Shown: positions 13,362 through 18,089 of the stretch, piece after piece
Layout of the letters: every line of letters begins with the position of its first letter
Position numbering within the stretch: the stretch's first letter is position 1
Source of the DNA: Sphingopyxis macrogoltabida
GTDB lineage: Bacteria; Pseudomonadota; Alphaproteobacteria; Sphingomonadales; Sphingomonadaceae
Direction of reading: 5' to 3'
Assembly: GCF_001314325.1 (NCBI RefSeq)
Contig: NZ_CP009429.1
Location: 1,364,501-1,428,500, forward strand
DNA: 64,000 bases
Made by a program: the position numbers and the translations under genes
The notes under the pieces: model-generated
What the model was told of the DNA's origin: nothing
The model's input: the letters and a program-made list of their open reading frames with translations, nothing else
Database searches by the model: none

Positions 13362-14726
13362 ATGGGCGTCCAAATCCTCATCGGCGACGTCATGGATCGC
13401 CTGCGCGCTCTCCCCGATGAAAGCGTCGACTGCGTGATCACCAGTCCGCCCTATTGGGGGCTGCGCGATTACGATGTCGAAGGTCAGATCGGCATGGAGC
13501 CGACGCTGGCCGAGCATCTGGCGATCATGGTCGAGATTTTCGAGGAAATCCGGCGGGTGCTGAAGCCGACGGGCACCGTCTGGCTGAACTATGGCGATTG
13601 CTATGCCACCGCGCCGAACGGGCGCAGCGCGGCCGATACCAAGGCCGAAGGCAGTGACGACCGGACGTTTCGCGACAAGCCGTTTTCGACGGTCGGGCCG
13701 GTGTTCGGCGCGCATCCGGGCGGGTCGACCGATGCAAGTGGCGCGCGCCGTCCCGGCCCTCCACTGAACGGAACCGGTCGACGGGGCGGCGGGAACAACC
13801 CCGCCGGCGGATATCTGAAACCCAAAGACCTGTGCATGTTGCCGAACCGGCTGGCGATCGCCCTGCAGGAGGCGGGCTGGTGGGTGCGGTCCGAAATCAT
13901 CTGGGGCAAGCCGAACGCGATGCCCGACAGCAGCGGCAAATATCGCCCGTCGACCGCGCATGAGAAGATTTTCCTGCTGACCAAGAGCGGCGATGCCGAC
14001 GTGTGGGTTGCGCGCGACACCGGCGAAATCAGTTTCTCACCCGACCTGTCCGAGCAATGCCCGCTGGTGACGAAGCCGAAGGAGCTTGGCGCGCGCTGGA
14101 TGCGGTTGGGCGCTCACTATGACGCGGGCGCGGTCAAGCTGCCCGTCTCGGGAAACAGCAACGCCCGCTGCGCGAAGGTCAAGGCGCCCGATAGCTGGGA
14201 CACCGGCCCCGGCGCCCACGGCAGCTATCACCGCAATGGCCGCGAAAAGGGCAAGGTACTCGGCGGCGGTCCGAAGACCGTTCCGGTCGGCACCTTCAAA
14301 ACCAAGTCGAACGAGAGCATGCATGCCGCGCTGGTCGATCAGGTCGGTGAACGCCTGCTCCGCAATTTCGAGACGGCCGAGACCATCGCCGAACTGGTGC
14401 CGCCCGATATCATGGCGTGGGAAATTGCCATTGCGGGCTTTTCGGGGGCGCATTTCGCGACCTTTCCCCCGGCACTGGTCGTGCCGTGTGTGCTGGCAGG
14501 CTGTCCGAAAGGCGGAACCGTTCTGGACCCGTTCGGCGGCGCTGGGACGACTGGAATGGTCGCTGACCGGCTTGGCCGTGAAGCCATCCTGATCGAACTC
14601 AACCATGGATATGCCGAGATCGCGCGGGACCGGCTTCGCAATGCTCTTTGCCGCGTGACCCTCGATGGCGAACAGGCGCGGGCGCAATCCGCTGGACCGC
14701 TGTTCGACGACGCGGTGGCCGCATGA
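13362..14726 (+). CDS. DNA methyltransferase, beta class (N4-cytosine/N6-adenine)
   Basis: 454 residues. Catalytic motif IV TSPPYW is at residues 28-33; the SAM-binding FxGxG motif is near the C terminus (VLDPFGGAGTTGMVADRL ... ILIELN). Motif IV before motif I is the beta-class order. SPPY with Trp favours N4-cytosine, but N6-adenine is possible. About 250 residues between the motifs hold the target-recognition region. No restriction gene adjoins it, so it is an orphan enzyme, presumably protecting phage DNA. Confidence 0.88.
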   Translation: MGVQILIGDVMDRLRALPDESVDCVITSPPYWGLRDYDVEGQIGMEPTLAEHLAIMVEIFEEIRRVLKPTGTVWLNYGDCYATAPNGRSAADTKAEGSDDRTFRDKPFSTVGPVFGAHPGGSTDASGARRPGPPLNGTGRRGGGNNPAGGYLKPKDLCMLPNRLAIALQEAGWWVRSEIIWGKPNAMPDSSGKYRPSTAHEKIFLLTKSGDADVWVARDTGEISFSPDLSEQCPLVTKPKELGARWMRLGAHYDAGAVKLPVSGNSNARCAKVKAPDSWDTGPGAHGSYHRNGREKGKVLGGGPKTVPVGTFKTKSNESMHAALVDQVGERLLRNFETAETIAELVPPDIMAWEIAIAGFSGAHFATFPPALVVPCVLAGCPKGGTVLDPFGGAGTTGMVADRLGREAILIELNHGYAEIARDRLRNALCRVTLDGEQARAQSAGPLFDDAVAA

Positions 14727-15772: not shown

Positions 15773-16039
15773 ATGGCCGAAGTCACCGATCCCCAACTGC
15801 GCCTTTTCATCGAGAGGATCCAGCGCCTTGAGGAAGAAAAGAAGGGCATCAGCGATGATGTCCGCGACACGTACAATGAGGCCAAGTCGCAGGGCTACGA
15901 CCCGAAGATCATGCGCCAGATTATCCGGCTGCTCAAAATGCCCGCCCACGACCGCAAGGAAATGGAAGCGCTCCTCGACGTCTATAAGTGCGCGCTCGGC
16001 ATGGAGCAGATGAGCTTGCCGCTGGGCGTGGCTGCGTGA
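15773..16039 (+). CDS. gapR: GapR-like nucleoid protein (DUF2312)
   Basis: 88 residues. The motif [29 protein letters not shown] and the IIRLLK ... [14 protein letters not shown] block match DUF2312/GapR almost residue for residue. In Caulobacter GapR clamps overtwisted DNA ahead of replication forks and helps gyrase and topo IV. A phage copy in the replication block would serve phage DNA or compete with host GapR. It starts one base after the preceding stop. Confidence 0.9.
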
Positions 16040-16416
16040 TCACCTTGCCTTGGCCTCATCCCTCGACGTTCCCGAACGCGAAGCGCCGGTTGCACTGGTC
16101 GCGCTACCAGCCGCACTGCAACCGCGCGCGGGGTGAGGCGAGGCTGGTCACGCGCGGATGGCTGAACGGCAATCCCGGCCAGCGTCCGCCCGCCGACGCG
16201 CCCCTGCCGCTGCGCGTGACCTTCACGCCGCCCAACCGGATCCGCCGCGACGATGACGGCATGATCGGGGCCTTCAAGCATTATCGCGATGGAATCGCCG
16301 ACGCCCTCGGCATGGATGACGCCCTGTTCCGGCCTGAATATCGGTTCGCCGATCCTGCGAAGCCCGGCTGCGTCATCGTCGAGTTTCCGCCGCTGATCGA
16401 AGGGGTGGGGGCGTGA
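16036..16416 (+). CDS. RusA-like Holliday-junction resolvase, GTG start
   Basis: 126 residues from a GTG overlapping the gapR-like stop (GTGA). It begins with [18 protein letters not shown], like the PLPPSxN opening of RusA, and has [29 protein letters not shown], equivalent to the RusA core helix with its acidic catalytic cluster. It would cut recombination or replication junctions before packaging. Confidence 0.72.
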
Positions 16417-17171
16417 CGAAGCTTCGCGTCCTCGATCTGTTCAGCGGCATTGGCGGCTTTTCGTTGGGCCTTGAACGCACTGGCGGTTTCGAGACCGTCG
16501 CCTTCTGTGAAATAGAGGAGTTCCCCCGCCGTGTCCTTGCAGAGCATTGGCCAGCCGTCCCTTGTTACGGAGACGTGCGAACCCTCACCGCAGACCGGCT
16601 TTCTGCCGATGGAATTGCCGTTGATGTCATCTGCGGAGGGTTCCCCTGCCAGGATCTATCAGCCAGCGGCAGTGGGCTCGGACTTGCCGGCGCCAGAAGC
16701 GGATTGTGGTTCGAATATGAGCGCCTCATTGGCGAGCTTCGACCGCGCTACATCATCGTGGAGAACAGCCCAGAACTGCTTGATCGATGGCTTGGCGTTA
16801 TTCTCGGAGCGCTGGCCTCGCTCGGGTACGATGCGGAATGGCATTGCGTTCCGGCTTCCGCCGTTGGTGCGCCTCACCGCCGAGACCGGGCTTGGATTGT
16901 TGCCCACGCCATTGGCGAGCGACAACCGGGATCGCGGCAACTTATCGAATCCGTCCATTCAACGTCGCTTCCGTTTAGGGAAGCAGACGCACTTGTCGCA
17001 TCGCTTCAAGGGCCCGTCGTGCCCTTCATGTGTGGAAGGCATGATGGGGTTCCCCGCCGGCTGGGTCAATTGCAGCTTCACGCCCTCGGAAACGCCGTAG
17101 TCCCTCAAATTCCCGAACTGATCGGCCGCGCGATCATCGCCTCGATCGAGCGCGAAAGGCTCGTAGCATGA
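16413..17171 (+). CDS. DNA (cytosine-5) methyltransferase, Dcm type
   Basis: 252 residues, short for the family because the target-recognition part is small. Motif I DLFSGIGGFSLGLE (residues 8-21), catalytic Cys79 in GGFPCQDLS, motif VI ENS (117-119; Ser where Val is usual), motif VIII GAPHRRDRAWIVA (152-164) and motif X LGNAVVPQIPELIG near the C terminus. All parts for catalysis are present. No restriction partner adjoins it. A second frame across 16531-17100 also appears to be coding. Confidence 0.9.
   Translation: MTKLRVLDLFSGIGGFSLGLERTGGFETVAFCEIEEFPRRVLAEHWPAVPCYGDVRTLTADRLSADGIAVDVICGGFPCQDLSASGSGLGLAGARSGLWFEYERLIGELRPRYIIVENSPELLDRWLGVILGALASLGYDAEWHCVPASAVGAPHRRDRAWIVAHAIGERQPGSRQLIESVHSTSLPFREADALVASLQGPVVPFMCGRHDGVPRRLGQLQLHALGNAVVPQIPELIGRAIIASIERERLVA
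16531..17100 (+). CDS. Overprinted phage protein inside the dcm-like gene (+1 frame)
   Basis: 189 residues from a GTG with GAGGAG ten bases upstream, entirely inside the methyltransferase gene but in the +1 frame. It carries a set of motifs I recognise from an uncharacterised phage family: SSWRTAQNC (75-83), WPRSGTMRNG (95-104), LLPTPLASDNRDRG (123-136) and EGMMGFPAGW (169-178). LLPTP is read from the same bases that encode WIVAHA of methyltransferase motif VIII. Long open second frames are common at this GC; it is the motifs, not the length, that support this call. Confidence 0.55.
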   Translation: MSLQSIGQPSLVTETCEPSPQTGFLPMELPLMSSAEGSPARIYQPAAVGSDLPAPEADCGSNMSASLASFDRATSSWRTAQNCLIDGLALFSERWPRSGTMRNGIAFRLPPLVRLTAETGLGLLPTPLASDNRDRGNLSNPSIQRRFRLGKQTHLSHRFKGPSCPSCVEGMMGFPAGWVNCSFTPSETP

Positions 17172-17344: not shown

Positions 17345-17838
17345 CGATCCCTGCCGACTTCAACCCTGCGCTGACGATGAAGCAATCCGCCAAAATCCAC
17401 GGCGTATCGCCGACCGCGATCTTCAAATGGCGCAAAAAGCTGGGGTATGTCGCCCGCGATGACCTCTGGACTGATGATGACATCCGCCGTCTCAAGTCTC
17501 TCTATTCCGGCAGCAGCCTGAACGACATCGCCGCGGCCCTTGGTCGATCGGTATCGGCGGTAAAGTCGAAAGCCGTCTCGCTTGGTCTGCGGCGGGCGAC
17601 CGGGCAGTTCGCGCCTGACCGCGCGCCGAAAATCAGCGGACGGGTACAAGGCGTCGCCGATATGGCCGCGCAACACCTTCGCCGGGACGCGCCGACATTT
17701 CGCTGTGACGCGAACGGGAAAGCCAACCCCAAGGGCAAATTCTGGCGCTTCGGCAATATCACGCTGACCGAAGACGACATGCTCGCGAAGGCGGAGCGCA
17801 AGGGCTGGTCGGCCGATGCGTGGCGGGAGATCGCTTGA
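17341..17838 (+). CDS. Two-HTH DNA-binding protein
   Basis: 165 residues starting MTIPADFNPAL. First HTH: MKQSAKIHGVSPTAIFKWRKKLG; second, SANT/GcrA-like: WTDDDIRRLKSLYSGSSLNDIAAALGRSVSAVKSKAVSLGLRR. The C terminus holds GKFWRFGNITLTEDDML. GcrA-type proteins in alphaproteobacteria recruit RNA polymerase, so this could be an activator of later phage genes; that is inference. Confidence 0.7.
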   Translation: MTIPADFNPALTMKQSAKIHGVSPTAIFKWRKKLGYVARDDLWTDDDIRRLKSLYSGSSLNDIAAALGRSVSAVKSKAVSLGLRRATGQFAPDRAPKISGRVQGVADMAAQHLRRDAPTFRCDANGKANPKGKFWRFGNITLTEDDMLAKAERKGWSADAWREIA

Positions 17839-18089
17839 TGCTGCCCGCCTGGTATCGCCCACCGCCATATGCGGCTCACACCGGCCTCGAGATTGTCTCG
17901 TTGATCGCGCGCGAGCACGGCCTGACCTTGGGCGACCTCACGGGCCCGTCGCGGGTCCGCACCGTCTGCATCGTCCGCTGGCGCGCCATGAAGGCATTGC
18001 GAGACAAGGGCCGGTCGCTCTCTTCGATCGGGCGGACGTTCAATCGAGATCATTCCAGCGTCGCGCACGGGCTGCGGAGGGCGGGGTGA
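17838..18089 (+). CDS. Stand-alone DnaA domain IV-like protein
   Basis: 83 residues. IVSLIAREHGLTLGDLTGPSRVRTVCIVRWRAMKAL followed by RSLSSIGRTFNRDHSSVAHGLRR matches the DnaA DNA-binding domain IV, including the RDHSSV form of its signature. There is no AAA+ domain. It could bind DnaA boxes in the phage origin or block host initiation. Start and upstream stop share one base (TGATG). It is followed by an 11-codon frame (18086-18121) linking it to the next gene. Confidence 0.78.
   Translation: MLPAWYRPPPYAAHTGLEIVSLIAREHGLTLGDLTGPSRVRTVCIVRWRAMKALRDKGRSLSSIGRTFNRDHSSVAHGLRRAG

Follow-up and report, generated by a model that had tools for sequence, protein, structure and literature searches.

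A locus in Sphingopyxis macrogoltabida is predicted to specify, in two reading frames that overlap, a C5-cytosine DNA methyltransferase made of two polypeptides and split as in M.EcoHK31I, a reading to which we assign a probability of about 0.85. The locus was found in a window of 64,000 nucleotides (the whole stretch of DNA that was analyzed), where two genes, here called A and B, lie within a prophage-like region; the genome measures 5.7 Mb in three contigs. We propose that A makes the large catalytic domain with motifs I–VIII and X, while B, which has a ribosome-binding site (RBS) of its own and starts within A, makes a small-domain polypeptide that would supply motif IX at its C-terminus and, from LPTP to GFP, a variable region of blocks. 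Without B, A would be unable to recognize DNA; A and B would bind each other to form an active enzyme that recognizes DNA through the blocks of B and methylates phage DNA, presumably for evading host restriction. Comparison of related loci shows that both frames are selected, that initiation signals are enriched in the frame of B, that B ends in a motif-IX-like segment and that B replaces an in-frame motif IX.

Two genes sharing bases in a prophage-like region

The protein encoded by A is matched by phrog_363 (E 4.4e-72), by TIGR00675 of the dcm superfamily (111.2 bits; cut-off 100.65) and by PF00145 (E 1.3e-40), the last over residues 5–168 only, so that the Pfam match stops just past motif VIII. 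Motifs I (DLFSGIGG), IV (GGFPCQD), VI (ENS), VIII (HRRDR) and X (GNAV) were identified by pattern. For a C5 methyltransferase A is short, and no in-frame motif IX was seen in its C-terminus; a loose motif-IX pattern matched LPFREADALVASLQ in the window, which was judged not to be motif IX, and the later pattern used in the locus survey passed the window over. Because in-frame motif IX is not seen and the recognition region between motifs VIII and X is without constraint in frame A, A is considered to be an incomplete methyltransferase. In a conventional monomeric C5 methyltransferase, motif IX and a recognition domain under constraint share the frame of motifs I–VIII; A has the make-up of the large polypeptide of a split enzyme, with motifs I–VIII and X and without in-frame motif IX. 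The methyltransferase frame had been called complete in the initial annotation, where motifs I, IV, VI, VIII and X were correctly listed and completeness was not.

The start codon, RBS and length previously given for B agree with the list of open reading frames and with the sequence, as do the B motifs that had been named (Table 1). LLPTP of B and WIVAHA of A do share bases as described, right after motif VIII. The earlier recognition of B as a phage protein family is supported by its match to PHROG 1008 (E 3e-19). A protein search with B yielded 158 relatives (the 120 best-scoring being listed), and PHROG 1008 matched 120 of the 120 rows of the B alignment (window and 119 relatives). No match of B was found in Pfam (E up to 1), NCBIfam (E up to 0.1) or PADLOC, and no sequence match in the PDB (E up to 10).

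Relatives of B are present in 26 phage records. Among the six of them that were inspected, three have only A annotated, two only B or part of B and one both; coding in two frames explains why annotators sometimes call one frame and sometimes the other. For instance, the coding sequence at 1986–2486 of the Stenotrophomonas phage SOVA965 record (L006), annotated as "DNA-cytosine methyltransferase," corresponds to frame B, and no annotation is given for the catalytic half, A. In one relative of B (P0020) the N-terminal part is replaced by other sequence, which we take to resemble a homing endonuclease and which suggests an insertion into a two-frame gene. One of the 120 B members matches phrog_5046, an HNH endonuclease.

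Upstream of the A/B pair are, in order, genes for a DNA repair protein, a GapR-like protein and a RusA-like resolvase; downstream follow those for an HTH protein, a DnaA C-terminal-like protein and a replication initiator and, further on, terminase, portal, head, tape-measure and tail-fibre genes. Of 148 related genomes, 3 (including that of the window) have a match to B, as is expected for a mobile gene. The GapR-like DNA-binding protein and the lone DnaA C-terminal-domain-like protein are both encoded close to the pair. The same prophage also encodes a second DNA methyltransferase, of the N6/N4 type, in which the conserved parts lie far apart (220 profile positions spread over about 400 residues). 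No restriction enzyme was found among the subset of neighboring open reading frames that was scanned.

Table 1. Features of the A/B locus and selected neighbors (window positions).
Feature	Position	Strand	Remarks
A, C5 cytosine methyltransferase, putative catalytic subunit	16413..17171	+	252 aa, GTG start
B, overlapping gene in the +1 frame of A	16531..17100	+	PHROG 1008; GTG start, 189 aa
RBS GAGGAG (16515-16520) and GTG start (16531-16533) of B	16515..16533	+	ten bases apart
B motif SSWRTAQ	16753..16773	+	overlies IIVENSP (motif VI) of A
B motif WPRSGTMRNG	16813..16842	+	by sequence
WIVAHA of A	16893..16910	+	right after motif VIII
LLPTP of B	16897..16911	+	overlaps bases of WIVAHA
B "PTP" block LPTPLASDNRDRG...HRF, type T1	16900..17007	+	36 aa; A unconstrained; proposed target-recognition module
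B motif-IX-like segment GPSCPSCVEGMMGFPAGWVNC	17011..17073	+	A-frame shadow is GRHDGVPRRLGQ
A motif X (GNAVVPQI)	17088..17111	+	B terminates within motif X
Second DNA methyltransferase, N6/N4 type	13362..14726	+	PF01555, E 4e-38
GapR-like DNA-binding protein	15773..16039	+	PF10073
Lone DnaA C-terminal-domain-like protein	17820..18089	+	PF08299

Selection on both frames and initiation signals of B

Two samples of loci were compared. The B-found set, obtained mostly through one B pattern, consists of 136 loci (80 of 585 viral loci and 56 genome loci among the matches listed), to which the six inspected phage records and the window's own locus were added. In 143 of these 143 loci the B match overlaps a methyltransferase match in the +1 frame, and no standalone B gene was seen among them; rare standalone copies may exist outside the loci sampled. 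After removal of 31 of the 143 loci without a full-length single-ORF A with B, and of 8 of the remaining 112 as at least 80% identical, 104 diverged loci were used for the tests of selection. As the B-found loci came mostly through one B pattern, the survey was redone on an A-found sample, namely the 80 best among 595 viral loci and 30 loci from each of two genome searches, giving 137 loci once the window (found twice) and one duplicate place (L270) were subtracted from 140. Some contigs are common to both samples, and the A alignment used for two of the three A searches consisted of A proteins from loci that have B.

Across the 104 loci, conservation of synonymous sites of A (observed/expected) is 1.09 before B and 1.16 after B, and along B it is 1.28 (A 60–112), 1.74 (113–160) and 2.17 (161–217). 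No excess was found over the first ~20 codons of B (1.04–1.08 over A 35–57), and the values are 1.69–1.78 in the two windows covering SSWRTAQ and 1.92–2.36 in those touching WPRSGTMRNG. The proportions of differences at codon positions 1/2/3 of A are.25/.21/.61 before B and.25/.14/.61 after B, against.25/.17/.30 in the catalytic part of the overlap. In the recognition region they are.51/.37/.29 among 13 loci of the same length, which is the pattern of frame B, while the pattern over all 104 loci, whose lengths differ, is flat (.66/.60/.62), this region being too diverged to show one. Between motifs VIII and IX, position 1 of A (position 3 of B) differs more often than position 3 of A in 94 of 94 same-length pairs with at least 50% DNA identity (non-independent pairs from 31 loci), and residue identity in these pairs is 0.42 in A versus 0.67 in B. 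Given this B-frame codon pattern, the methyltransferase frame between motifs VIII and IX is regarded as a shadow.

These patterns bear on the reading that it is B which is the shadow, that is, an untranslated frame whose motifs merely mirror, in +1, conserved methyltransferase motifs in GC-rich DNA. The window gene by itself lends that reading some support: its +1 frame is open for 194 codons compared with a mean of 113 in synonymous shuffles, which is modestly unusual (p 0.045). Across relatives, unlike in the single window gene, openness of the +1 frame is far beyond chance, with 230 codons versus 114 in shuffles at the 104 B-found loci (p < 0.05 in 95) and p < 0.05 in 3 of them for the +2 frame as control. 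B-found loci are biased toward an open B frame, so that openness by itself is insufficient; the tests of synonymous sites, of codon positions and of initiation signals, and the comparison of A-found loci, are independent of this bias. Among A-found loci with B, the +1 frame is open for 238 codons versus 115 in shuffles (p < 0.05 in 77 of 91), whereas conventional methyltransferases found in the same way have no long +1 frame (83 versus 77 codons; p < 0.05 in 3 of 44).

An RBS followed by ATG or GTG occurs in the +1 frame at 50 of the 104 loci, with 15.6 ± 3.4 expected from 200 shuffles, and in the +2 frame at 13, with 16.3 expected; by the rule used, 54 of the 104 loci have no RBS. The GTG and GAGGAG at the start of B are identical in one relative (L008). 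When frames were scored by HMM relative to recoded sequences, the outcome lacked frame specificity: at 104 of 104 loci the +2 control exceeded all 20 recoded versions. In favor of the shadow reading, recoded sequences still score a median of 138 bits with a B profile. The +1 matches over motifs I–VIII in actinobacterial single-ORF relatives (L134, L136–L139, L142 and L143) may also be largely shadow, since motif IX of these proteins is in the A frame. With synonymous sites conserved under B and near background on either side of it, a codon-position pattern inverted in all pairs and RBSs enriched in +1 and not in +2, an untranslated B is nevertheless extremely improbable and was rejected. We conclude from these comparisons that B is a real gene and that both frames are under selection, in line with the true overlapping pair suggested by the initial annotation. 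That annotation had named two observations that together would speak against such a pair; one of them, the confinement of B homologues to methyltransferase genes, was indeed made in all the loci sampled, but substitutions do not protect the methyltransferase frame only.

Motif IX in one frame or the other

Of the 137 A-found loci, 91 have B and no in-frame motif IX and 44 have an in-frame motif IX and no B; one (L230) is an A/B fusion and one (L269) is cut by a contig end. Assignment by regular expression and profile had, before inspection, given motif IX only in +1 at 88 loci and only in frame at 41. Eight exceptional loci were settled by eye, at four of which the motif-IX pattern had misjudged: it missed an in-frame motif IX in L152, L153 and L291 and was falsely positive in L265. 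B is weak or diverged in L273 and L151. The mutual exclusion partly reflects kinship, since all 44 conventional methyltransferases come from genomes and B is present at 79 of the 80 viral loci.

The C-terminal consensus of B, LNPxWVEWLMGFPxGW, aligns to motif IX. In a direct profile comparison of B with conventional methyltransferases, the single best match falls on motif IX and is weak (E 0.0022, probability 13%). The match becomes strong when bridged by actinobacterial single-ORF relatives, in which the segment from the end of B stands in frame ahead of motif X: the B family matches their C-terminus with E 1.7e-10 (20 columns), and this C-terminus in turn matches motifs IX–X of conventional enzymes with E 2e-9. 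The C-terminus of the type found in Streptomyces phage Samy (L007), where A ends after motif VIII and IX- and X-like segments lie in the +1 frame, matches them with E 3e-7. In L230, LNPDWVEWLMGYPISW is in the methyltransferase frame ahead of motif X. The weak direct match, the strong bridged match, L230 and the mutual exclusion together suggest that motif IX is carried by the second polypeptide, as in a split methyltransferase.

B had been suggested to modulate the methyltransferase, and a regulatory or inhibitory protein, distinct from an enzyme already complete, would fit an open reading frame with its own start, given that the joint enzyme of A and B is deduced from sequence comparison. Two points speak against such a role: the incomplete appearance of A, without in-frame motif IX or a constrained recognition region, and the fact that B and an in-frame motif IX exclude one another in the loci sampled. 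Being present where A lacks motif IX and absent where A has it, B looks like the missing part of an enzyme rather than a regulator; the suggestion is therefore not sustained, and a modulator of a complete methyltransferase was rejected as very unlikely.

Variants that switch frame have been sequenced. At about 1992–3030 of L230, frame A itself includes a motif IX of the B type, and in L045 (2826–3720) and L067 (2694–3705) the N-terminal part of B and motif X of A are in one ORF, although assembly errors are possible in all three. Together with Samy-type loci, where B carries both IX and X after A has stopped, and with the 54 loci without a recognizable RBS, they would be compatible with ribosomal frameshifting that joins segments of B to A in one polypeptide. 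Synonymous sites of A are, however, already conserved under SSWRT and WPRSG-MRNG, far upstream of where a frameshift would be useful, and an RBS with a start codon is enriched in the frame of B. Moreover, motif X is back in frame A at the window locus, so that two shifts would be needed. We give a frameshift product a very small probability and reject it in favor of two polypeptides initiated separately. A protein of an Enterobacter hormaechei plasmid (L293, 1441–3663), annotated as a Dam-family adenine methyltransferase, contains an A-like C5 stretch and is probably a fusion of two methyltransferases.

PTP blocks and comparison with known enzymes

Between LPTP and GFP, B proteins contain one to six blocks per locus with a median length of 36 aa. 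A total of 335 blocks were obtained from 184 of 225 distinct B ORFs, and the other 41 yielded no block by pattern. Single-linkage clustering put 221 of the 335 blocks in one group; block types were defined in its place as star clusters at 60% identity. The 23 types common to at least three loci account for 136 blocks of the 335 and differ in position and combination from locus to locus, and 199 blocks belong to no shared type. The one block of the window's B is of type T1, which is found in 28 loci as the sole block (13), the second of two (12) or the third of three (3). The LPTPTAHNAKEG... type occurs in seven loci; among those of their catalytic halves that were compared, median identity is 34%. 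On the basis of their position, their modularity and the lack of constraint in A, the PTP blocks of about 36 aa are probably swappable recognition modules, and B, as the putative subunit for recognition and motif IX, probably selects the target sequence in DNA.

According to PMC3404938, motifs VIII and X of conventional C5 methyltransferases are separated by a variable region for recognition and by motif IX, and M.AquI and M.EcoHK31I are natural two-polypeptide enzymes. In M.EcoHK31I (YGGCCR), which is called naturally split in PMC3439449, the large polypeptide has motifs I–VIII and X and the small one has motif IX alone (PMC3404938), the same division as proposed for A and B. The predicted recognition domain of M.EcoHK31I is placed in the large subunit (PMC3404938), whereas the recognition region at the window locus is constrained in B and not in A. 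The A/B pair differs further in its prophage or phage setting, with no restriction enzyme among those neighboring reading frames that were scanned. M.AquI (alpha/beta, CYCGRG) is likewise a natural C5 split with motif IX on the smaller polypeptide; its small subunit carries both IX and X (PMC3404938), while at the window locus the large frame keeps motif X. Closer to M.AquI are the Samy-type loci, in which A terminates past motif VIII and both IX and X belong to B.

The A/B locus has a further trait in common with M.EcoHK31I, in that its second polypeptide is nested in the first gene in another frame. Lee, Kam and Shaw reportedly described in 1995 that the small polypeptide of M.EcoHK31I is encoded in this way. 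The multispecific C5 methyltransferases of Bacillus phages, reportedly the topic of Trautner 1996, are single polypeptides with tandem short recognition modules between motifs VIII and IX. The blocks of the B family are similarly short, tandem and located between VIII and IX, but those of the Bacillus phage enzymes are in the methyltransferase frame and those of B are in the +1 frame on a separate polypeptide.

The PHROG 1008 label ("DNA methyltransferase," category "other") is silent on a +1 partnership with a C5 methyltransferase. In the literature searched (titles, abstracts and passages, with subscription papers mostly outside), no description of an overlapping-frame cytosine methyltransferase in phages was found, and the excerpts returned for phrog_1008 mention phrog_10089 only.

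More broadly, we give even odds to the idea that a large and widespread class of dual-coded phage cytosine methyltransferases has its specificity subunit in the +1 frame of the catalytic gene, with swappable PTP blocks of about 36 aa, so that phages would switch methylation specificity through exchange of cassettes whose sequence is mere noise to the catalytic frame. PHROG 1008, known only by its label, gains a testable role. In genes of this kind, what frame A encodes from motif VIII to motif X would be a shadow and should not be taken for a recognition domain. If our interpretation is true, the family would be a widespread case in which two parts of one enzyme share the same bases, with the catalytic frame constrained and the recognition frame free to change, and would provide a natural split methyltransferase with possibly exchangeable specificity modules.
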